38,245 nucleotides of DNA from a virus: the IMG/VR virus record IMGVR_UViG_3300025013_000126, positions 1 through 38,245 of that record. The stretch is one strand, 5' to 3'. A program made the position numbers and the translations under genes. The number at the start of each line of letters is the position of its first letter. Within the stretch, counting starts at the first letter, position 1. Shown one piece after another: positions 13,084 through 31,933 of the stretch. Below the pieces are notes generated by a model. It searched no databases. It was not told where the DNA came from and saw nothing but the letters and a program-made list of their open reading frames with translations.

Positions 13084-13971
13084 TTAGGCCTTATTATGTA
13101 GATAGATGCCGTTGACCTTGTTGTCATACACAAAGGCATCATGGTAAAGCCGGTATTGCCAGAGATGGCCGTCGCTAAGCTGGTTAACCTCCGGTGAGAA
13201 ATACTTGACCTGGTTCAACTTCACAGGCTGCAAAACCGCGGACGGATGCAGGATCATGAAATTGACATCCTTACCCGTTGCCACATTCTTGATGAACCCG
13301 CCCGCATCGGAGGTAGCACCAGCATTGAGCGTGATTGCGGTGTAAAAACGAGTCTGCGGTACCGGGATAATCTCGGTTGCTTCCAGAAATTTGACAGCGC
13401 GATTCAAAGCAGCATCGTTCCCCCAGGAACGAGTCATCGCGCCTTTAAGCAATTCATACAGAGTATGAGTGATAAACAGCTTACGTCCTTCTTCCGGAAC
13501 TTCATCCTCACTCAAACTCAGGCTGGCAGCATCAATAGCAGCCAAAACCTCGGCTGCAGTTGAAAGCGTCGCAGGCGTAGCCGAGTTTCCGGCGCCGGCA
13601 GCATACTTGGCAAAACGATAGGCATCCAATTCAGGAGCCACATGGACACGCATCCATTCACGAATGAGATTGCCAAGCACAAGGCCCAGACTTTCGTCAT
13701 TATCCATGCGGTCCAAAGTGAAAGAACGCCCGCGTTCAGCAGCAAGTTGCATGGTTTCCCAGGCTGCCGTAATATCACCAGCGGGATAGCCTGTAGTACG
13801 GCTGTAATTGCCCAGGCCAACGGTCGAAAGCTTCATAACTTTGACTTCGTTGGCATTCAAGAATTCAGGAGTTTGAGTGAGCGCATCAAGGACAGCAGTT
13901 TTGCTCTCCAGTTTATAAACCATGTCGATGAGCGCAAGAAATTTACTTACCAAAGTAATCGCATTAGCCAT
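13084..13971 (-). CDS. Major capsid protein
   Basis: 295 aa, directly after the GP20-type scaffold and before connectors, as in A118-like phages. Features include a helical N-terminus (MANAITLVSKFLALIDMVYK), GNYSRTTGYPAGDITAAWET and TMQLAAERGRSFTLDRMDND, then a P-domain-like region (DAYRFAKYAAGAGNSATPAT) and VNFMILHPSAVLQPVKLNQ near the C-terminus. These match HK97-fold coat proteins of this group. The scaffold is a separate gene, so no long delta domain is expected. Confidence 0.85.
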   Translation of the reverse strand: MANAITLVSKFLALIDMVYKLESKTAVLDALTQTPEFLNANEVKVMKLSTVGLGNYSRTTGYPAGDITAAWETMQLAAERGRSFTLDRMDNDESLGLVLGNLIREWMRVHVAPELDAYRFAKYAAGAGNSATPATLSTAAEVLAAIDAASLSLSEDEVPEEGRKLFITHTLYELLKGAMTRSWGNDAALNRAVKFLEATEIIPVPQTRFYTAITLNAGATSDAGGFIKNVATGKDVNFMILHPSAVLQPVKLNQVKYFSPEVNQLSDGHLWQYRLYHDAFVYDNKVNGIYLHNKA

Positions 13972-13982
13972 GATATTTTTCC

Positions 13983-14546
13983 TTACTTCGTTTTCGGTTC
14001 TTGGATACCAGCGCCTTTCAGCATGGCAGCTTCAAACGCATCGGTATGTACGGATTGGTTGTTGCTCCCTAGAACAATCGTGGGAGGTTGATCATCACTG
14101 GCAAACAGGTAATCATTTTCCTTTTGGATCTTCTCAAGCTGGTCCTTGAGGCCGATAATCGATCCGTCCGCGTCGTTAAATTTCAATTGCTCAGTATCGA
14201 GCAGGGCGCGTACGGCTTTGGGATTCTTGGCTTTAGCGCCGGTCAGAGCGCCGTCAAGTGCATGATCGAATTTCAACTTTGCAACCTGATCAGCAGCATC
14301 TTTAGCGGCTTGTTCGGCCTTGCTTTTCCATTCGTCAGCGGTTTTCTTTACGCCTTCGATGTCCATGCCCTTGAAGCTCTCGATCTGTTTGTTAGCCTCG
14401 ATAAGCTGGTCCTTGGCAGTCTTGAGCTCAGCTTCGGTTGTGGACTGTTTGGTCTTATGGCTCTCGATATCCGAACCATGCAAGGCCATGATCTTATCAA
14501 CCATATCTTCGGCAATTCCCAGTTTGATCAAATCTTCACGTTTCAT
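13983..14546 (-). CDS. Capsid scaffolding protein (phage minor structural GP20 type)
   Basis: 187 aa from the ATG at 14546, which has AAGGAG about 9 nt upstream; an in-frame start eight codons earlier lacks a good site. MKREDLIKLGIAEDMVDKIM followed by a long charged coiled coil (about 30-110) and a segment FDHALDGALTGAKAKNPKAV then RALLD is the hallmark of GP20 scaffolds. It is the first gene behind the promoter-leader cassette at 14655-14789 and precedes the major capsid gene, so the capsid/tail block begins here. Confidence 0.9.
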   Translation of the reverse strand: MKREDLIKLGIAEDMVDKIMALHGSDIESHKTKQSTTEAELKTAKDQLIEANKQIESFKGMDIEGVKKTADEWKSKAEQAAKDAADQVAKLKFDHALDGALTGAKAKNPKAVRALLDTEQLKFNDADGSIIGLKDQLEKIQKENDYLFASDDQPPTIVLGSNNQSVHTDAFEAAMLKGAGIQEPKTK

Positions 14547-14654: not shown

Positions 14655-14754
14655 AAAAAAAGCCGCCCAGTGTAACAGCAAACAACTTACTTGCTAGTAC
14701 ACCGGGCGGCTAACTTCGGTTTTTCTCCATTGCTGGAGAGCCGTTTATTCAATT
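14655..14754 (-). ncRNA. Leader RNA A: structured 5' RNA ending in an intrinsic terminator
   Basis: Predicted transcript of about 100 nt starting 7-8 nt after the -10 box. Three blocks are identical to cassette B (21808-21892): TTGAATAAACGG (14752-14741), CCGAAGTT (14719-14712) and CCGCCCGG (14709-14702). Between the first two is a hairpin TCTCCA-GCAA-TGGAGA. The 3' part is a terminator: GCCGCCC (14710-14704) pairs with GGGCGGC (14668-14662), followed by seven T. It stands about 110 nt before the scaffold gene, so it acts either as a free small RNA or as a regulated attenuator of the capsid/tail operon. Confidence 0.75.
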
Positions 14755-14760
14755 ACTCTG

Positions 14761-14789
14761 ATTATAACAACGATGCAGTAAAATTGCAA
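14761..14789 (-). promoter_or_regulatory. Promoter for leader A and the capsid/tail block
   Basis: Leftward sigma70-type promoter: TTGCAA (14789-14784), 17-nt spacer, TATAAT (14766-14761). The first conserved leader block begins exactly 8 nt after the -10 box, the same distance as in cassette B. Confidence 0.75.
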
Positions 14790-14827: not shown

Positions 14828-14833
14828 GAATTT

Positions 14834-14912
14834 GCGTCTGAGGTGGAGAATCAGGTACCATTTCCCCGAAAGGGATGGATGCCGGTGAGCCTGACCGGCC
14901 AGACGCTTTTTT
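14834..14912 (+). ncRNA. Plus-strand structured small RNA candidate, about 79 nt
   Basis: Starts at the predicted +1 with GCGTCTG (14834-14840), which pairs perfectly with CAGACGC (14900-14906), followed by six T (14907-14912). Inside are a hairpin closed by CCA/TGG and TCCC/GGGA with a CGAAA loop (14858-14878) and a hairpin GCCGGT/ACCGGC (14881-14899). TCAGG (14851-14855) can pair with CCTGA (14890-14894) in that second hairpin, giving a possible pseudoknot. Ends, promoter and U-tail fit one discrete transcript. I do not recognise it as any known riboswitch or ribozyme class. It overlaps the last codon of the minor capsid gene in antisense. Confidence 0.65.
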
Positions 14913-16455
14913 ATTTCCTTTCATACAATATTTCTCGCTTTGCCCATCGTTTCAAGAAACGTTTTTTTTCCTCAATATGAATTGTTTCTAGCCAAAGTTC
15001 ATTTGGCAAATATTTCACGGGCGCCAATAAAAAATAACGATCATCGAAGTCTTCTACGAATTGAATAGATGATATTTTTTTGCCTTGATAAAGATATTTT
15101 GGATCGTTTAATATTTGAGGAAGCATTTGTTTTGCACGAATGATATCAAATTGGACCTTGTGTTTCTCAATATGCCCTAAAACACCATCAGAAACCATGA
15201 CAGTTTGCGCGCTGGTGCGAGTTTCAAAAATTGATTTTATGGGATTGCCGATAGTCCCTACCTCATGAACTTGTTGCTCGGCAGAAATTATTGTTTCTTT
15301 TGATGGATTTATTTTCGTACTACTTGATGAAAAAATTACCTTCTCTCTGTCATACTGCCTTGATAATCCAGTTTGCTTTGTAAAACCTCTCATTCTCGCT
15401 TGCCACTCACGCACCTTTGATGTCTCAATGATCGTGTCCAGTCCGGCAGCTTCCAATGCCCCCCTTTGCCTTTTCCAATACCTGATTTTTCGTTCAATGG
15501 CTCGCTGCTCCTGGGTAGCCCCATACATACTGAGCTCTTCGCCATTGTATTTCACCGTTTTGCCAGCAAAATCATTCAAATCAGCTTGAGGGTAGGCGTT
15601 TTCGCTGATCCCCTCAAAAAAAGGATAAAACGAATGACGGCAGTTATAACCACATAAACCAATGCCGGTACCATAACCAGTGGTTTCAATAAAATCCGGA
15701 TATTTTCTGCTAGTTCCGGACCGCGAATAAACCTTTCCTTGCCAACTTTCATGATTCATGGGCCCGGTGCCTTTATTGCGAGCTCCAATATGAGCACTCA
15801 CTGCAACCAGGTCAACCCCAAGTTCATCTGCCCGGGCGATTTGCAAATTTCCAACTGTCTGATTTACTCCTGTCAATACTGTCCGTCGCATTGCAACATC
15901 CAGATGATCTTGACGCTGGGAAAAATTGATAGCATTCAATCCCTGGTTGGCAACGCTTTTAATCGCATCTCGGATTGCTTGAGAATAAGACATTGCGCCA
16001 TTGCTCACCTGCATATATGCTAAATCAGCAGCATCAATAAATATCTGTTGCCCACTTATTGCAGTAGTCATGGTCATATTTTGCATAATCCCCCGAGTTT
16101 TTTGCAGTCCAGTAGCCAAAACCTGTATCATGGCTGGAGATAAATTCAATGGCAATGGCTTCAGACCAGCAGCCCTATAAATTGCATCATCAAACTTGAG
16201 CGCTTTCACACCGGCATTCTCAAATAGTGATCGTAATTCGGTTTCAGATTTTCCCGTTAATTTGCTCAACTCCTCGAGTGCATTTTCATAAACTAGGCCC
16301 GATTCAATTAGACGCTGCATTTGCCATGCTGCTGTATCTGTCATAGTTATCTTGGCCAACCGACGTGCAATATCATTGATAATCGAATTCTCGTACTCAG
16401 TATAAAGAGCGAGAATTGGATCCACCAATGAATCAAGTTGATCAGAGGTTAGCAT
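14911..16455 (-). CDS. Minor capsid protein (Phage_min_cap2) with C-terminal PBECR-like nuclease domain
   Basis: 514 aa from the ATG at 16455 (MLTSDQLDSLVDPILALYTE, the usual family opening, GGTGG upstream); an earlier in-frame ATG would overlap the previous gene much more. The body (about 1-350) is the portal-associated minor capsid protein, with NHESWQGKVYSRSG, TTGYGTGIGLCGYNCRHSF and FFEGIS motifs. The last about 110 residues (KSIFETRTSAQTVMVSDGVL ... GHIEKH ... YFLLAPVKYLPNELW) look like a phage Barnase/EndoU/ColicinE5-D/RelE-like nuclease domain, as fused to MuF-type capsid proteins. This nuclease may be delivered with DNA. Domain family by eye; the minor capsid part is firm. Confidence 0.85.
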   Translation of the reverse strand: MLTSDQLDSLVDPILALYTEYENSIINDIARRLAKITMTDTAAWQMQRLIESGLVYENALEELSKLTGKSETELRSLFENAGVKALKFDDAIYRAAGLKPLPLNLSPAMIQVLATGLQKTRGIMQNMTMTTAISGQQIFIDAADLAYMQVSNGAMSYSQAIRDAIKSVANQGLNAINFSQRQDHLDVAMRRTVLTGVNQTVGNLQIARADELGVDLVAVSAHIGARNKGTGPMNHESWQGKVYSRSGTSRKYPDFIETTGYGTGIGLCGYNCRHSFYPFFEGISENAYPQADLNDFAGKTVKYNGEELSMYGATQEQRAIERKIRYWKRQRGALEAAGLDTIIETSKVREWQARMRGFTKQTGLSRQYDREKVIFSSSSTKINPSKETIISAEQQVHEVGTIGNPIKSIFETRTSAQTVMVSDGVLGHIEKHKVQFDIIRAKQMLPQILNDPKYLYQGKKISSIQFVEDFDDRYFLLAPVKYLPNELWLETIHIEEKKRFLKRWAKREILYERK

Positions 16456-16733
16456 TCCACCAATTTTCCATTGGTCAAAAAACCATGCCAACCATCTGAC
16501 CATCCCAGATTCCCATGCACCAAGATGGACGGCGATAAGGTCGGCGCTTCACGGTTTCCATCCCACTTCCAGTGAGGTTTGCCGGGCATGACATTCTCGG
16601 CAACAGGGATAATGGTTGTGCCAGTAAAAGCAGTCTCTCCATAACGAATGGCTATCAATTCATCATTGTTCAGAAAACACCAATCGCCTTTTTGGCCGTT
16701 TTTGTCCAACTCGTTCAAATTTTTGTGCAACAT
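16449..16733 (-). CDS. DUF6527-like small protein
   Basis: 94 aa. A conserved pattern PHWKWDGNREAPTLSPSILV (about 53-72) plus GWHGFLTNGKLVEC at the C-terminus is typical of the small DUF6527 proteins of phages, whose function is unknown. It lies between the portal and minor capsid genes and overlaps the latter by 7 bp. It is an insertion in the otherwise compact portal-minor capsid order and could be a moron or a capsid-linked accessory. Confidence 0.6.
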   Translation of the reverse strand: MLHKNLNELDKNGQKGDWCFLNNDELIAIRYGETAFTGTTIIPVAENVMPGKPHWKWDGNREAPTLSPSILVHGNLGWSDGWHGFLTNGKLVEC

Positions 16734-16879: not shown

Positions 16880-18292
16880 TCAAGTTGTAACCTGCCCAAA
16901 CATATCTTCCGGTTGTTCAGCCACAATCTCAGCAATCTTCTTTTTCGCTGTGGCTTCATCTTCCCCAAAATTGCGCATTCTGAATTCCACCTTGCCCATG
17001 ATTCCCATGGTTACCAGGCGACTATCCTGTGAAAATTGAACATCCTTATCGACAATCACGCTGTCATCGAAATCAAAAGCTGTTGAGTATTTGCCAGCAG
17101 GTGCCAGCTTGTAAATGGTCACATAAACATCCATCGCATACAACAGCTGCTCAAGTGCACTTTGCAACGCCTTCTGGGTATCGGTAATCGTCGCATATGT
17201 ACGTTGCTTCGAAGTTTTTATTTCTGTGGCAGTCTTATCGATCGATTGAGGATCTGAAAGCGTGCCATAGGCCAGGCCACATGCGTATTCAATGCGCTTA
17301 AGAATCGCATCCAGCCCAGCTAAAATATTTGTTTCCCGTAGCGTAGGCGTCCATTCCTTGAAGAGGCCGTCAGGATTATCGCCAATATTCGAAGTACCAT
17401 TCAAGGCCCGATAAAGTCGCTTTTGTGGAAGAACCAAGGTACCGTCTGTCTTTTTCTCGAAGGAAGTTACATCCGCGTACAATGCCCGTTGTCCACTCTC
17501 GAATTCCCACAGCAAATCAGACCATTGCCGGTCGGCCTGTTCAATCTGCTCAACCGCCCGAGAATAGCAACTCACCCCCAGAGGTGAAGTAGGATCAACA
17601 TTGTTTGCCAGCGGATAGTGGAAGTAAGCCAATAATGGCTTATCTATATTTGTAATAGTCACTTCCGGTTGTAAAGCTGCCCAATCATCAATTGAAGTGA
17701 GCACAACTTCAGTGCCTAACGTATCACGTGTAGAACTTTTGAAAGCCCGATTACGAATTAAGCATCCATTCTTTACCATGGCATGATATTCAAGCCTGGT
17801 ATAAAAATCATGACCTATTGTGCGTTGGTCAGCAAAAATACAGGCAGTGATATCACCATTAGCATCAAAGGTTACTGGGTAAAATAAGTCAGCCTGGACA
17901 TAGTCCACCATGATTTGATTACCCTGCACGTAGGGTTTCATCATCAATCCACCCTTAGCTGCTCCCTTCTCAACCTGTTCACGCAATTTCAAAAGCACCC
18001 GCCCAAATTGTTTGGCAAGATAATCTGCTCGTGGACTGCCGGTAATTTCCACTCCCATTTCAATAGTGGCGGACCTCGCAATTTCCCCGGCAATAGCAGC
18101 AGCCAGATTAAGGCTGTGTATATCTTGGTTTAGCCAAGTTGCGCGATTCTCATACATTGCCGACCAGAGTTCTAACGCAGTGGACATTTTTTCGCTGACC
18201 GCTACGTCAACACTAAGCGCCTTTTTTACGTCCGTTTGTCCTAACATTTTCCGAATTACCTCCCGAATCCAAACAAAAATCTGTTGAAACAT
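16880..18292 (-). CDS. Portal protein
   Basis: 470 aa, between the terminase and minor capsid genes. Pattern as in A118/SPP1-type portals: N-terminal amphipathic MFQQIFVWIREVIRK, ELWSAMYENRATWL (about 42-55), GLMMKPYVQGNQIMVDYVQ and ADLFYPV (about 115-140), then GVSCYSRAVEQIEQADRQWS and DTQKALQSALEQLLYAMDVY. It forms the dodecameric DNA gate and terminase dock. It begins one base after the terminase ends, sharing the A of TAATG. Confident on length, context and motifs. Confidence 0.9.
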   Translation of the reverse strand: MFQQIFVWIREVIRKMLGQTDVKKALSVDVAVSEKMSTALELWSAMYENRATWLNQDIHSLNLAAAIAGEIARSATIEMGVEITGSPRADYLAKQFGRVLLKLREQVEKGAAKGGLMMKPYVQGNQIMVDYVQADLFYPVTFDANGDITACIFADQRTIGHDFYTRLEYHAMVKNGCLIRNRAFKSSTRDTLGTEVVLTSIDDWAALQPEVTITNIDKPLLAYFHYPLANNVDPTSPLGVSCYSRAVEQIEQADRQWSDLLWEFESGQRALYADVTSFEKKTDGTLVLPQKRLYRALNGTSNIGDNPDGLFKEWTPTLRETNILAGLDAILKRIEYACGLAYGTLSDPQSIDKTATEIKTSKQRTYATITDTQKALQSALEQLLYAMDVYVTIYKLAPAGKYSTAFDFDDSVIVDKDVQFSQDSRLVTMGIMGKVEFRMRNFGEDEATAKKKIAEIVAEQPEDMFGQVTT

Positions 18293-20076
18293 TACTGACC
18301 TCGCCTTCGCCAGATTAAATTCGTAGCGTACCGTGAACCATCAATAAAATGATTATCCCGGTCCGGATATTCAGAAATGAAATTCCCGTCTCGATCCTGT
18401 TCAAGTTCATAATTTAGGAATTCATTAGCTGCTTCAGGCGCCCGTTCTGGATCAATCACGATTGCCGTCAGGGATTGAAACCACTTCATGGAATAAGCCA
18501 CTGAATCTGGCCCCTTCTCTGCACCACGTGCATTAAGGCCATATTCACGGTAATCTGCAATACTCTTTGGTTCTGCACTGTCAGAAATCAGCAAATCCGC
18601 TGCGGTGACATTTTTATCATGCACTAACATCTGATATGTTTCCCGATTTGATTTTTTGAAGGCTTTAAGCTCATCAAAGATGTATAACGTCAATCTGGCC
18701 GCGTCGTAATGGCATTTCACCCACGCATAAGGATCAGGGAAATAGCCCCAATCATTGCCCATTAAAATATGATCAAACTGAGCGATATCTTCATCGGTAA
18801 TTTTGCGCAATTGTACATTCTCGAAGACTAATCCACCGGTACCATTAGCTACCCCCAGATATTCATGTTCATAGGCCTTTGGATTGACAGCTTTCAGGTG
18901 ATCAGCCTCTTCTAGGAATACCTTGCCCAACCATTCAGAAGGCACCTCCAGATAACAACTTTCATGCTGATACTGAGTATCTTTGGGGATTTTGGCGTAT
19001 TTGTTCGCCCAGTTTGCAGCTGTACGTGGTGGGTTGAAACTCTTGAAAATATAGGCTAAATCACCACCGCGAATAACAGACTGCTCGATTTTGCGAATTG
19101 CTTCTTCCCCGTGGAATTGATCCAACTCTTCAAACCACAGAATTCCAATATAACCAAATGCCGGCTTGATACTTTTGATCTTTCCCGGATCATCTGCTCC
19201 CCGAAAGTAAATCTTTTGCCCAGTAGGAAGATAAGTAATTTCCAGGGGCGAAAGAGTACACTTGAATTCATTCTCTAATCCCAGTTCGCTAATAGACCAA
19301 AGAAATTGCGAATATACACTATCCTTCAGTGTGTTCGCAACCTGCCGAGCAGCAAGAGCATGCATCCCTGGGTTGTTCTTGATCAGATAAAGAATAATCG
19401 AGGACACAAAAGTCGATTTTGTTGAACCGCGCCCACCCCGAAACAAATACTCAGTATGTTGATGATCCCGAATATCCCGGTAGGCCTTGAGAAACTGGGG
19501 GGCAAGTAAATCAGCTGGAAGAGTATATGAAATTAAATTAGAGGAAACACTTTGATTTTCATCGTTGAATAGCCGTAAGTGATTACCTAACATCATCATT
19601 GCTGTTTGGGGATTGTGTAAGCTTAAACCGACGGTACGTGTCTTACCCGCCGATGTCATTACCTTTTTGACTAAATGTCCACGATCTTTTAATGCGGTTT
19701 CATTCAACCGCGCGAAATTTCCGCCTTGATCAACAATAAGAAAATCGGCAATGTTCGCACGTCCCATCTGAGACAGCCGCGCAAGCAGCTCGGCTTCCCC
19801 CATGACTTGTTCGCGCCAACGGGCATCAGCCTGTTCAATAACATACCGGTCCCAGGCCTCCGCGCGTGCTTTCCAACTCCAGTTCTCCATGGCGCGCCGC
19901 CACGTGCCAGGTGCACATTTTGCCCGCCCTTTTCCTATCTGTGCTCGATCCCGATTCAGTGTGCCAAGTAGCGTCCGCCCGGGTCCCATCAATCGATAGT
20001 ATTCAAAACGGGTGTGCCATAAAGTCGGCTCCCCGTCTTGTTTTTCCCAAGGCATCTGTTCTCGTTCATCAACCAT
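18292..20076 (-). CDS. terL: Terminase large subunit with an N-terminal small-terminase-like region
   Basis: 594 aa, about 150 longer than usual. Residues 1-175 hold a helical region with NWSWKARAEAWDRYV and EAELLARLSQMGRANIADFL, which resembles small-terminase/DNA-binding modules. The ATPase follows: Walker A GGRGSTKST (214-222), Walker B ILWFEE (312-317), coupling SFNPP (346-350). The RNase H-type nuclease has MGNDWGYFPDP (Asp442), LISDSAEP (Asp499) and a C-terminal DNHFIDGSRYA (Asp579). No separate small terminase gene was seen nearby, so one polypeptide may do recognition and packaging. Exact dispersed-motif copies lie at 18971 and 19448. Confidence 0.9.
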   Translation of the reverse strand: MVDEREQMPWEKQDGEPTLWHTRFEYYRLMGPGRTLLGTLNRDRAQIGKGRAKCAPGTWRRAMENWSWKARAEAWDRYVIEQADARWREQVMGEAELLARLSQMGRANIADFLIVDQGGNFARLNETALKDRGHLVKKVMTSAGKTRTVGLSLHNPQTAMMMLGNHLRLFNDENQSVSSNLISYTLPADLLAPQFLKAYRDIRDHQHTEYLFRGGRGSTKSTFVSSIILYLIKNNPGMHALAARQVANTLKDSVYSQFLWSISELGLENEFKCTLSPLEITYLPTGQKIYFRGADDPGKIKSIKPAFGYIGILWFEELDQFHGEEAIRKIEQSVIRGGDLAYIFKSFNPPRTAANWANKYAKIPKDTQYQHESCYLEVPSEWLGKVFLEEADHLKAVNPKAYEHEYLGVANGTGGLVFENVQLRKITDEDIAQFDHILMGNDWGYFPDPYAWVKCHYDAARLTLYIFDELKAFKKSNRETYQMLVHDKNVTAADLLISDSAEPKSIADYREYGLNARGAEKGPDSVAYSMKWFQSLTAIVIDPERAPEAANEFLNYELEQDRDGNFISEYPDRDNHFIDGSRYATNLIWRRRGQ

Positions 20077-20090
20077 TAATTTCTACTGTC

Positions 20091-20972
20091 CTACACCATA
20101 TACCGTGTGCTGTTAATCTGCACTGCCGCCCAGCCTTCCCGTCCATCCATTGTATGACCGTGCGCCCACGCTTCTTTTCCGGCAATGGCATCCACAATAA
20201 ACTTTTCACCCTTATATAAATCTCCGATATCGTTGTTTGACAATACCAGGGGAGAGCTACGCAAGTTTATCTTTTCCAGGACAACTGTCATTTCAATACC
20301 AAAGGGCACAGAAATAGGTTGCTGATCAATTTCATCTAGTTCAGGCAAGCTGTACCGGGCAATCATTTCTGTCAATGTGCCGTTGTAATAATCGCCGTCC
20401 AAGTCCAAACTCTCGGCGCCCCACTCGAGCCCCCTCAGTTTGAACGTGTACTGCCAGAAATTCCATGTATTCCATGGCTTAGGCACTTCAACAGAGCCAG
20501 TGATATCGCACAGCCACAGATGGTATTGTTTCCAGTACTCAGCATGTGAGCCGTTCGGGTCCCAGAATGATTTTGCAGTGTAAATGCCCTTTGGTAATGG
20601 GTCAGATAGTTGGCGCAACCGTTCCATAAACGAATAGAGAATATCCATAGCCCGAGTTGGAACCGTCTTCCACCATTCAAAATCACAAACCAGAGGCAAT
20701 AATCCCCATGTGTCCTTCTCGATAAGTGACCAAAACAATTCAGCTTGTTTCCATGGTCCAACATCCCATACTAAAAAATGGAACGGCATTCGATACAGCC
20801 TTCTACGGCAATCTGCCCAGTTCCAAGCATAGTCAGGATCAGCCCAATTTGCCTGACTTACTTTTATTCCAACAAACGACGCACCTCGCCGGCGCGCCTT
20901 AATTGGATCGAACATTTGCGGCGTAGAATTATTGTCCTGCCAAACTGAAATATCAACACCTTGAGCGTTCAT
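20091..20972 (-). CDS. Endolysin: GH25 lysozyme with C-terminal SH3-like domain
   Basis: 293 aa. GH25 fold features: QGVDISVWQ with Asp7 at the N-terminus, GIKVSQ (35-40) and LVCDFEWW with Asp97 and Glu99 as likely catalytic acids, then IYTAKSFW and FWQYT. From about 225 a bacterial SH3-like domain (LEKINLRSSPLVLSNNDIGD, then WAAVQINSTRY) should bind the wall. No signal peptide, so release depends on the holin. It cuts the peptidoglycan glycan backbone. Lies between the membrane genes and the terminase, upstream of packaging rather than after the tail genes. Confidence 0.9.
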   Translation of the reverse strand: MNAQGVDISVWQDNNSTPQMFDPIKARRRGASFVGIKVSQANWADPDYAWNWADCRRRLYRMPFHFLVWDVGPWKQAELFWSLIEKDTWGLLPLVCDFEWWKTVPTRAMDILYSFMERLRQLSDPLPKGIYTAKSFWDPNGSHAEYWKQYHLWLCDITGSVEVPKPWNTWNFWQYTFKLRGLEWGAESLDLDGDYYNGTLTEMIARYSLPELDEIDQQPISVPFGIEMTVVLEKINLRSSPLVLSNNDIGDLYKGEKFIVDAIAGKEAWAHGHTMDGREGWAAVQINSTRYMV

Positions 20973-21394: not shown

Positions 21395-21787
21395 TTAGCC
21401 CTGATAAAAATCAACCGGGTTAGTTGGTGTTTTAATGGGAAACAGATTCCCATATAAACTTTTTATCGTCTCCAATATCCGGGCACTCAATGATGTCACC
21501 ACTGCCAACCAGGAGAGCCAGGTTGCACTATCACCAACTAAATTGCTGTATTCCGGTCCCAATTGATCTACAGAAATCAACCTTACTAAGAATACAAACG
21601 CCAACCAGCCGATAATAAAGGGCATTACCATCACCCGATAAAAATCAGCTAATTTTTTCCAATCGAACACCTTCTCGCGGATTGCCAAAGCAACAGCAAG
21701 AATCACTTGCAACAGAATCAGACCCAACAATGTCAGAAGCTGTTTGATCAACTGCTCAGTAAAAATAGATGACAATATTTCATTCAT
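21395..21787 (-). CDS. Holin-like membrane protein
   Basis: 130 aa with three hydrophobic segments: about 13-36, 51-70 and 86-104, separated by short charged loops (REKVFDWKKLADFY). Short length, multiple membrane spans and position two genes ahead of the GH25 endolysin support a holin. It is the first gene behind the cassette B promoter, leader and terminator; the terminator ends 21 nt upstream of the start and the GAGAGGA ribosome site lies between. Escape from that terminator would therefore gate lysis and packaging genes together. Confidence 0.65.
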   Translation of the reverse strand: MNEILSSIFTEQLIKQLLTLLGLILLQVILAVALAIREKVFDWKKLADFYRVMVMPFIIGWLAFVFLVRLISVDQLGPEYSNLVGDSATWLSWLAVVTSLSARILETIKSLYGNLFPIKTPTNPVDFYQG

Positions 21788-21807
21788 AGTATCCTCTCTT
21801 GGAAAAC

Positions 21808-21892
21808 AAAAAACCCAGCACAGCCTATTACTAGACTATGCCGGGCGGTCAACTTCGGCCATTCCCACCACGGGGAAACCGTTTATTCAACT
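21808..21892 (-). ncRNA. Leader RNA B: homologue of leader A, ending in an intrinsic terminator
   Basis: Same order as leader A: TTGAATAAACGG (21890-21879), a hairpin (TTCCC/GGGAA), CCGAAGTT (21858-21851), CCGCCCGG (21848-21841), then a terminator stem CCCGGCATAG (21845-21836) with CTGTGCTGGG (21823-21814) and six T. Hairpin sequences differ from A while pairing is kept. It overlaps the 3' end of the upstream Cys-rich gene: the conserved block contains that gene's TAA. Confidence 0.75.
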
Positions 21893-22173
21893 GCAATTAT
21901 TCTAGCACGTTTCACCCTCTCAATCAACCGCGCAAGTTGATAGTCCCGACTATCAAAATGAACTATTTTCTGACAGATCCTACACCGCCCATGGAAATAT
22001 TGAGCATCACCAGTTTCCAAACGCAGCCACACGTGATTTTCAACCCATATTAACTGCCCAATGGTCACACCACAGGCACATTGCAATTTCAAATCATCAA
22101 CAACCTTCACTGGAAGTGTTTCTGGAAAATCATTAGTCAATTTGACCTCCGTGGTTCTCTGTGTCATCATCAT
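21883..22173 (-). CDS. Small Cys-rich putative zinc-binding protein
   Basis: About 96 aa; three adjacent ATG codons (22173, 22170, 22167) follow the prim-pol stop (TGATG), so the exact start is uncertain. Two Cys pairs, CACG near residue 32-35 and CRIC near 65-68, fit a zinc ribbon with intervening aromatic HVWLRLE. The tail is basic (LARLIERVKRARI). Last gene of the early block; its end overlaps the cassette B promoter and first conserved block. DNA- or RNA-binding is possible; no family is recognised. Confidence 0.6.
   Translation of the reverse strand: MMMTQRTTEVKLTNDFPETLPVKVVDDLKLQCACGVTIGQLIWVENHVWLRLETGDAQYFHGRCRICQKIVHFDSRDYQLARLIERVKRARIIAVE
21899..21927 (-). promoter_or_regulatory. 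Promoter for leader B and the lysis/packaging block
   Basis: Leftward TTGATT (21927-21922), 17-nt spacer, TAGAAT (21904-21899). It is embedded in the last codons of the gene at 21883-22173. The conserved leader block begins 8 nt after the -10 box, exactly as at cassette A. Confidence 0.65.
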
Positions 22174-23018: not shown

Positions 23019-23497
23019 AATTCCGGATTTCGTGCGACCTTTTTTGACGATTCACGGCTAAATTGTGTAATTCGTGCGACCTGTGCGACCTTTCGACCGA
23101 TTTTCTTAAACTGGTTTTTTAAATAAAAGTTAAGTATGTTTAAGCAAAAGGTCGAAAGGTCGCACGAGGTCGCACAGGTCGAAAAATCTATACGCAAGTT
23201 TTTGGGAAAAATTCCGGAAAGTTTGCAAAAAAGGTTGCATAAGTCGCATAGGTCGCACGAATTTTGAGTAAATTGTTTGAAAAAGGTCGCACGGGTCGCA
23301 TGGTCGCATTTATGGAAAAATCTATGCGCATGGTCGCTTTTGAGGCCTTTCACGTCTGAGAAAGTACGTTTTTTTCCTCTTTTTTGAAATGTTAAAGAAT
23401 CTAAAATGACCTGAATTTTTGTAATTTTGGTCGCATAGGTCGCGCGGGTCGCACGATTTTGGTAAGAAGTGTTGAAAAAAGGTCGCACGGAGATCAT
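23009..23497 (-). CDS. Repeat-derived open frame between helicase and primase
   Basis: 162 codons without a stop. It starts with an ATGA overlap on the helicase stop (23497-23494) and ends with a 10-bp overlap into the primase start, as a real operon gene would. The product is Cys/Arg/Thr/Phe-rich with repeat-encoded RATRATYATK and CDLCDLCNLF segments and no recognisable fold. The DNA is filled with GGTCGCA-type repeats (see repeat entry). It may be a translated spacer that keeps ribosomes coupled across the putative origin, a true Cys-rich protein, or an accidental frame. Confidence is limited. Confidence 0.4.
   Translation of the reverse strand: MISVRPFFNTSYQNRATRATYATKITKIQVILDSLTFQKRGKKRTFSDVKGLKSDHAHRFFHKCDHATRATFFKQFTQNSCDLCDLCNLFCKLSGIFPKNLRIDFSTCATSCDLSTFCLNILNFYLKNQFKKIGRKVAQVARITQFSRESSKKVARNPELWL
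23031..23490. repeat. Iteron-like GGTCGCA repeat field, candidate replication origin
   Basis: At least 15 copies of GGTCGC(A/G) or its complement, mostly in tandem groups of two to three spaced 9-10 bp: 23031-23040, 23073-23098 (inverted), 23150-23181, 23233-23259, 23285-23308, 23332-23338, 23429-23455, 23481-23489. A perfect 16-bp inverted repeat (23083-23098 with 23150-23165) flanks a very AT-rich 51-bp spacer. Location between helicase and primase genes, iteron periodicity near one helical turn and the AT-rich core fit an origin bound by a phage initiator. No experimental support. Confidence 0.65.
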
Positions 23498-24630
23498 GGG
23501 ATTTTGCTCCCGACACCATAATAACCTTTTTGATTGTTCTGCTGCCCTCGAACTAACCCAAGTTTTTTACAAGTGGTGGCTAGAGCCATTTGGAAGGCTT
23601 TGGCTGAAGAGAATTTGCCTACTTTATCCTGCAAAATATACATAAGCTCTGCTGTCGATGTCCAAAGAGTGATATCACCTGGTTTTAATCTGAATTGATC
23701 TTTTAGAACAATTTCTATAGGGTCATCGATTTCGTATTTTTGATTGTTGGTTTCCGTTTGTTGTTTTTGTACTTCGGAAAATTCAGTATTTTCACCTGAT
23801 AGATAAGCTGCGTAAATTTCGCCCCAGAGTTGGTTAACGTCCAAAGTAAGATACGTTTGCCAGTCTACGTGTTTCACCTCACAGATCATAAAACGCCGGC
23901 TGCCAGTTGGATCATCCAGGAAGCCACCCTCATTGTTGATAGTGCCAATGAGATTTGCCAAGATAGGTTTTGTTGTATCGAATCTCCCGTATGGACGGCG
24001 AAAGGTTATATTTTGCATAGTAATCAAATTTTTCAACGCTTCACGATCCGAACGCCGGAAAGTCGCGCCCAATTCGCCCACTTCCCAAATCCACTTTGTG
24101 GTCAAGCGAATTTGAGTGTCTTTGCTATCGGCATCGATCCCGCCTTCAGTAAAATAATCTGGCAATCCTGAACAAAGCCATTTTACGAAGAGCGACTTAC
24201 CAATATTTTGCGGCCCATCTAAAATCAACATACGATTTTGTGTGCCGCTGATAGTCTTTGCAATGGTGCCCAACATCCATTTACGTAAATAGACCGTAAT
24301 TAAACGGTCTGGATTGTCAAAACACGCCACTAATTCATCGAAATAGTGTCCTCCATCATAGGGCAGTTTAAATAAATACTCCTTTATAGGATTGTAACGG
24401 TTGTCATATGCCATGGCGCCAATAGCCACCCGTGTATAACGCTCATTGTTCATACCCTTTTCGATCAACTGAAATTCAATTTTTGAGAATTGTTCATCAG
24501 TGAGCGGTTTCCCGTTGAGTTCAATCTGTTCAGAAATTTCATTCAACTTGAATTGATAGCCAAAAGCTTTCACCCAGGCTATATAGTCTGCAATTTGCTG
24601 CGCACGGCTGGTGGCGGTTTTAGGTGGCAT
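23494..24630 (-). CDS. VapE-type superfamily 3-like helicase / primase-associated ATPase
   Basis: 378 aa. The ATPase core has Walker A GPQNIGKS (139-146), a downstream WIWEVGELGATFRRSDREAL segment with acidic Walker B residues, then TFRRPYGRF and TIN with SRRFMICEV, the order seen in virulence-associated E / phage SF3-like helicases. The N-terminal about 110 residues are a helical loading region. It pairs with the separate prim-pol gene downstream to form the replication unit. Start ATG at 24630, 5 bp after the VWA gene ends; the ribosome site is weak. Confidence 0.85.
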   Translation of the reverse strand: MPPKTATSRAQQIADYIAWVKAFGYQFKLNEISEQIELNGKPLTDEQFSKIEFQLIEKGMNNERYTRVAIGAMAYDNRYNPIKEYLFKLPYDGGHYFDELVACFDNPDRLITVYLRKWMLGTIAKTISGTQNRMLILDGPQNIGKSLFVKWLCSGLPDYFTEGGIDADSKDTQIRLTTKWIWEVGELGATFRRSDREALKNLITMQNITFRRPYGRFDTTKPILANLIGTINNEGGFLDDPTGSRRFMICEVKHVDWQTYLTLDVNQLWGEIYAAYLSGENTEFSEVQKQQTETNNQKYEIDDPIEIVLKDQFRLKPGDITLWTSTAELMYILQDKVGKFSSAKAFQMALATTCKKLGLVRGQQNNQKGYYGVGSKIP

Positions 24631-31263: not shown

Positions 31264-31933
31264 TTAATTGCTCTACAATTTCAAGCAATTCAAGTCTGTT
31301 ACAACGTGCTTTGCCGTCTGTGTTGTAGGGGACTACTACACCAGGCAAATCAGTCCATTGAACACGACAACGCCAAATGGATACCAATCCGATGGTTACT
31401 TTCTCACCATAATTTCCTTTTACCCATTTCAGGGTAGCGAAATTTACCCCACATGCACAATCGTTCATCGGTAATGGATTAACAACTTCCTCCAGACATG
31501 TGCCGGCGCTGATTTCCCAATAATCCGGTCTCTCATAACTGTTCTTGCCAATGGCTTTATAGACAATATAGCCCAGGTCATCATGTTCAAAATTTTCAGC
31601 AAGCCATTTGACTGGGTTAAGCAAATTTCGGGCACCACTCAGGTCGGCACCACTCAGGTTGGCACCACTCAGGTTGGCACCACTCAGGTTGGCACCACTC
31701 AGGTTGGCACTTCTCAGGTCGGCATTTCTCAGGTTGGCACCACTCAGGTTGGCACCACTCAGGTTGGCACTTCTCAGGTCGGCACCACTCAGGTCGGTAC
31801 TTCTCAGGTCGGCATTTCTCAGGTTGGCTTTTGAATGCGTTTCGGCGCCGGTGAGTTCTTGCCACCACAATCTATGGTCTTCCAAAATATCGGCCAAATT
31901 TCGGCCATTGATAACAATATTGGTTATGGCTCT
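31256..31933 (-). CDS. Pentapeptide-repeat protein
   Basis: 225 aa from ATG 31933 (AGAGAGGA site); a longer frame start is less likely. Residues about 30-105 are made of A(N/D)L(S/R)(G/N/S) pentapeptides, 16 or so in tandem, forming a right-handed square beta helix. The C-terminal about 110 residues ([20 protein letters not shown], then [10 protein letters not shown] and [18 protein letters not shown]) occur in phage and bacterial pentapeptide proteins and may bind a partner. The repeat helix can mimic DNA, e.g. for gyrase, but this is unproven here. Confidence 0.85.
31634..31833. repeat. Tandem 15-bp repeats coding the pentapeptides
   Basis: About 13 nearly identical 15-bp units of the form CACTCAGGTTGGCAC or TTCTCAGGTCGGCAT (plus-strand view). 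Neighbouring units are often exact copies, so recent expansion or contraction by slippage is likely, and read length may hide the true copy number. Confidence 0.85.

Follow-up and report, generated by a model that had tools for sequence, protein, structure and literature searches.

A zinc-ribbon gene and a covarying leader RNA suggest a late-gene antitermination switch in a probable Chloroflexota phage

Introduction

What does a short leader that closes in a strong terminator do at the head of a phage late operon, and why does the same phage carry a similar leader before its other late operon? Late-gene control has been worked out in few phages, mostly of Proteobacteria and Firmicutes. The question arises here in a virus record of 38,245 bases (the whole stretch analysed, hereafter the window), whose siphovirus-like late region lies on the minus strand in the order holin-like, spanin-like, endolysin, terminase, portal, minor head, scaffold and major capsid genes. 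Among these, the holin-like small membrane protein gene (21395..21787, -) is named from its position and membrane segments only, and is followed by genes for the endolysin (GH25; 20091..20972, -) and the terminase large subunit (18292..20076, -). The scaffold protein gene (PF06810; 13983..14546, -), with a likely ATG at 14546 after AAGGAG, precedes the major capsid protein gene (13084..13971, -). The host of the phage is likely a member of Chloroflexota, since related capsid proteins occur on contigs from Anaerolineales assemblies (L252, L284) and from assemblies labelled Anaerolinea (L250, L251).

Some further features of the window were recorded. The minor head protein gene (14911-16503, -) has a C-terminal match to the PBECR3 nuclease-like domain, below the Pfam cut-off. 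The replication gene region is dense in repeats, both inverted and direct, that carry GGTCGCA units (23069-23499), possibly an origin or a binding-site array, and a 15-nt repeat array, GGCACCACTCAGGTT, lies at 31631-31847, apparently within a coding region.

Results

Cassette A (14789-14655, -) heads the scaffold/capsid/tail operon, with the minor head gene on one side and the scaffold gene on the other. It is made up of a promoter of sigma-70-like type, about 95 nt of leader and, at the end, a strong intrinsic terminator. The promoter (14761..14789, -) was located by a consensus scan as TTGCAA and TATAAT separated by 17 nt, with an extended -10 (TGTTATAAT), and the -10 recurs in relatives 8-11 nt 5' of the leader motif. 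The leader is predicted to start at about 14754. Its 5' motif TTGAATAAACGG (14741..14752, -), from which (T/C)TGAATA recurs in relatives, lies at this predicted start and runs into CGGCT (14739..14743, -), the 5' strand of a stem termed P1, and by an optional inner hairpin, P2 (CTCC-AGCAAT-GGAG; 14725..14738, -). Next come CCGAAGTT (14712..14719, -), a conserved single-strand or alternative-pairing motif, and AGCCG (14707..14711, -), the 3' strand of P1 with which CGGCT covaries. AGCCG doubles as the 5' base of the terminator, so that the two pairings are mutually exclusive. The terminator hairpin and T run occupy 14655..14711 (-), and the leader as a whole, ending with this hairpin and then the T run, folds at -45 kcal/mol (z -5.8). 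A consensus-like promoter and a leader closing in a strong terminator ahead of the scaffold gene had been proposed in a preliminary description of this DNA, and both were recovered here.

Nowhere in the window, cassettes A and B included, did an Rfam family reach its gathering score, and over A there were only weak matches at chance level. A GP20-b-like RNA (RF03003; 14572..14632, -) was scored at 22.0 bits, below its gathering score of 36.2. It shares with cassette A the intergenic region just 5' of the scaffold (GP20) gene, but lies between the cassette A terminator and that gene as a separate element 3' of the terminator. The GP20-b RNA is above threshold in the relatives L131 and L098, and a GCGTAAAA...ACCTCGTAAAA element recurs 5' of scaffold genes in relatives, including ones from Firmicutes-type phages. 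In addition, an opposite-strand RNA with its own promoter (TTGAAA-17-TATACT) and T run is predicted in the stretch that separates cassette A from the minor head gene (14833-14907, +). It matches the Rfam skipping-rope RNA at 26.7 bits (E 1.5e-4; gathering score 36.7), and sequences similar by eye are found at the same place in L061, L074 and L131, with no Rfam match where these were scanned.

Cassette B (21927-21806, -) lies 7 kb upstream of cassette A, between a zinc-ribbon gene and the lysis/packaging operon, of which the holin-like gene is the first gene 3' of the cassette. It combines a promoter found by the same scan (TTGATT-17 nt-TAGAAT with an extended -10; 21899..21927, -), a leader with TTGAATAAACGG, P1 (CGGTT:GACCG), P2, CCGAAGTT and CCGCCCGG (21841..21890, -), and a terminator hairpin and T run (21806..21846, -). 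As the preliminary description had reported, three sequences are common to A and B, namely TTGAATAAACGG, placed 8 nt from the -10 in each, CCGAAGTT and CCGCCCGG. Exact occurrences of TTGAATAAACGG in the window are confined to the two cassettes, and chained exact matches between A and B amount to 28 nt, a value reached by 0/3000 random pairs of window segments (maximum 21). Between the -35 and the -10, A and B match at 5/21 positions, which is the chance level, indicating that their shared part is transcribed; matches further upstream of the promoter (5/10 and 9/24 positions) are likewise not above chance. Relatives from viral contigs, described next, indicate that A and B are both conserved RNA elements.

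Relatives of the major capsid protein led to similar leaders placed ahead of the scaffold gene, and exact scans with the leader core then yielded L061 (both cassettes), L074, L125, L127 and L129, with L288 added through its zinc-ribbon gene. The core runs in the order CGGYY, an optional hairpin, CCGAAGTT (with one change, CCGAAGTC, in L288), RRCCG and the terminator. P1, the five-pair stem CGGYY:RRCCG, pairs in 8/8 distinct copies (40/40 cells), which are all the distinct copies of this subclass (1a) known. Changes on both sides occur in 2/5 pairs among these eight copies, a result equalled in 1/500 shuffles, and the YY/RR partners change jointly (CU/AG, UU/GA, CC/GG, UC/GA). This covariation supports the earlier suggestion of an RNA selected for structure, for which homologues with hairpins that do not covary had been named as the refuting case; the stem that matters, P1, does covary. 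The inner hairpin, by contrast, had been taken as conserved in form, and this was not borne out: P2 is present only in A, B and L061B, and its lack in five copies (L061A, L074, L125, L127 and L129) indicates that it is not essential.

A covariance model (R1) run over 95 loci recovered only its own seeds and re-fetched copies of seeds. Close capsid relatives (major capsid protein identity up to 85%) gave no leader with a loose sequence pattern, and the leader was found in more distant relatives. A search of viral contigs for the AATAAACGG...CCGAAGTT pattern returned 39 stretches with no promoter or terminator, all of which were read as chance.

Folding of the growing transcript predicts that P1 stands at 0.94-1.0 before the 3' arm of the terminator exists and at about 0 afterwards in A, L061A, L125, L127 and L129, where it would yield to the terminator, in most cases joined by a CGG:CCG hairpin as an alternative fold. 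That hairpin is predicted to outweigh P1 throughout in B and L061B, even before the terminator appears, and the terminators of these B-type copies barely overlap P1. The feature expected of an attenuator, a covarying pairing that excludes the terminator, is therefore present in the A-type leaders, where RRCCG is common to P1 and the terminator, with marginal overlap in the B-type. Since P1 is predicted to be non-dominant in the B-type and the terminator there hardly touches it, simple mutual exclusion does not explain B.

The gene for a small zinc-ribbon protein (96 aa; 21883..22173, -), a candidate late regulator, lies directly before cassette B, whose promoter is inside its 3' end. In the 12 contigs first found, window included, a zinc-ribbon gene is directly 5' of a cassette that leads into lysis genes or terminase; homologues in this position were seen in L061, L127 (L287), L129 (L289), L288, L068, L059, L113, L071, L131 and L057, and, with weaker protein similarity, in L132. 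By an automatic rule, a terminator follows 10/12 zinc-ribbon genes versus 32/229 control gene ends. L287, L288 and L289 share with the window only the zinc-ribbon gene out of 14 genes tested, and carry the same leader. A later scan added five zinc-ribbon homologues, with a full cassette directly after two of them (L292, L295); L297 has a cassette elsewhere and none adjoining the gene, L299 has a promoter and TTGAATA without a terminator, and L298 has no cassette. Among 396 genomes of the class that includes an Anaerolineales bacterium with a related capsid gene, one match was obtained (L290), with no cassette after it. The protein clade tracks the leader subclass: the zinc-ribbon tree groups all 1a members (support 0.978) and places the 1c members together, L290 among them. 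The all-family alignment was too diverse for scanning.

The zinc-ribbon protein itself has no recognisable relative with known function. Searches of Pfam, PHROGs and NCBIfam gave nothing beyond generic zinc ribbons, INPHARED phages gave no match to the protein or to the DNA, and a structure model (pLDDT 80) gave no significant fold match.

Further relatives have the (T/C)TGAATA motif 8 or 11 nt after a -10 hexamer, combined with different stems. The two L132 sites carry P1-like stems related by compensatory change (GCUUG:CAAGC at A, GCGUU:AACGC at B), both sites of L131 have AACT..ATAGGG...GUCCC, and both sites of L057, L059, L071, L113 and L292 have (A/G)CGGUAU...CCGCC, with a slightly shorter loop at one L071 site. 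In L295 the stem is compensated, GUGG:CCAC replacing GCGG:CCGC. The leader subclass thus varies from phage to phage and is the same at both cassettes of one phage. Among eight phages, the two leaders of one phage are more alike than leaders across phages (2/40320 permutations as good, p ~5e-5), and several further phages have two cassettes of one subclass. L075, in which no zinc-ribbon homologue was found, is an exception with different leader types at its two sites, and L068 is ambiguous. The likeness of the two leaders of one phage could also come from recent duplication.

A different conserved leader was observed 5' of the scaffold gene in L055, L064, L075, L076, L085, L139, L284 and L093, with the consensus ACAGCGUCACGCC..GGGGCGCAACnAAUAAGUGGGAC...GCCACGC and a terminator. 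RNAalifold gives compensatory changes in 7/18 of its pairs, its AAGUGGG is able to pair with the 5' arm of the terminator, and the three members scanned (L055, L139, L093) have no Rfam match at gathering score.

Discussion

The cassette is conserved and heads both late operons, P1 covaries, the leaders of one phage match each other, and the zinc-ribbon gene is linked to them; all of these were computed directly. We give an even chance to the reading that A and B form a late-gene antitermination switch, which would resemble the Q-pR'-tR' system in its working but use unrelated parts and probably read RNA. In such a switch, a strong sigma-70-type promoter would fire and the short leader would fold, and by default polymerase would halt at the built-in terminator, releasing a transcript of about 95 nt. 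In the early part of the leader, CGGYY would pair with RRCCG, showing the conserved CCGAAGUU in the loop of P1, whereas in the terminated state CGG would re-pair with the CCG of CCGAAGUU, and RRCCG would be taken into the terminator or left beside it. A trans-acting phage factor would recognise the nascent leader, or polymerase as the leader emerges, and bring about read-through at both sites, which would switch on two operons together: the lysis/packaging operon behind B and the scaffold/capsid/tail operon behind A. At the B-type leaders of the window and L061, the effect of the bound factor or of a polymerase modification would have to exceed competition for RRCCG, because the alternative hairpin is predicted to prevail there at every stage.

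We infer read-through itself, the zinc-ribbon protein as its most probable factor, and RNA as what that protein reads. Three points single this protein out as the leading candidate: where its gene lies, how it co-varies with the leader, and the way the two move jointly between contigs that are otherwise different. Its position and co-variation make it a good candidate antiterminator. Of the three readings offered in the preliminary description, an attenuator read by a phage antiterminator is the best, given the one-subclass pair of cassettes in each phage, their place at the heads of both late operons and the zinc-ribbon gene beside B; the antiterminator itself is putative.

In phage lambda, the late switch is laid out as Q, pR', tR' and S. 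The window is similar in that a putative regulator gene, a promoter and a short leader with a terminator precede lysis and packaging genes as one late switch, and the position of the gene next to the B promoter fits a Q-type regulator, a role it may have. Q action needs a Q binding element in the DNA between the -35 and the -10 (PMC6606751), whereas A and B have no shared DNA site in this interval. Furthermore, the zinc-ribbon protein is unrelated to Q, matching no Pfam antitermination family up to E 1, the conserved part here is RNA, and the capsid operon has a second cassette of its own ahead of it. For the -10-like sequence of a sigma-dependent, Q-type pause in the initial transcribed region, inspection by eye picked out AATACT (L061A) and AATATT (L075B) as similar and AATAAA (A) as dissimilar. 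The lambda N/nut system also uses a promoter-proximal RNA site in more than one operon, with a specificity that varies between phages. The cassettes resemble it in this repeated placement within a phage, but differ in having no boxA/boxB-like order by eye, a terminator within the cassette, late rather than early operons and another protein.

A put-like element, in which the leader RNA would modify polymerase in cis to resist adjacent and later terminators without a phage protein, had also been proposed. Like putL and putR of HK022, structured promoter-proximal RNA occurs twice in one phage, at two operons, and the leaders of one phage have sequence in common. The put RNA, about 70 nt in all, is built of two long stem-loops that meet in a V and make contact with the beta' zinc-binding domain, and it acts without a phage protein (PMC9378689). 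Two long stem-loops were not found here: class 1a has one element of 3-5 bp plus the terminator, and five copies have no further hairpin. Moreover, a protein gene is linked to the leader, and an autonomous element would need no subclass-matching with a protein, which makes a put-like mode decidedly unlikely. By the features tested, the proposed switch would work like late antitermination but falls outside the Q and put families.

The zinc-ribbon gene adjoins a late promoter, and late promoters of P2-like phages are activated by small zinc-binding proteins. Its product might thus be a DNA-binding activator like P2 Ogr, with the leader and terminator serving as an insulator against upstream read-through or as a small RNA. 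This reading is unlikely: the hexamers of both promoters are close to consensus as they stand, each with an extended -10, and what A and B share above chance is transcribed rather than located in or upstream of the promoter. The terminated leader, about 95 nt long, might instead be the end product: a phage small RNA with an open 5' end, (T/C)TGAATA, that would base-pair with targets. A conserved unpaired 5' end beside the predicted start and a strong terminator are consistent with this, but the cassettes stand directly before late operons rather than in isolation, and complementary sites are in only weak excess at two mismatches, leaving such a product very unlikely. The leader structure competes with the terminator, as in a metabolite riboswitch, and a riboswitch-like sensor was among the initial proposals. 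However, such a sensor is disfavoured since the element differs between phages and yet matches within one; with no metabolic gene downstream and no Rfam family scoring at its gathering threshold in the window, it is extremely improbable.

To return to the antitermination switch, the co-variation, across many uncultured phages, of an unannotated protein family with an RNA switch that Rfam does not list suggests a small two-part module. More tentatively, and at somewhat less than an even chance, these elements may represent a new antitermination system, probably of Chloroflexota phages, in which small zinc-ribbon proteins would read a nascent-RNA switch at every late operon and protein and RNA specificity would be exchanged jointly between otherwise unrelated phages. 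If the protein does read the RNA, the module would add one more independent way of achieving antitermination; it might serve as an orthogonal genetic switch, and a recurrent unknown phage gene would gain a function.
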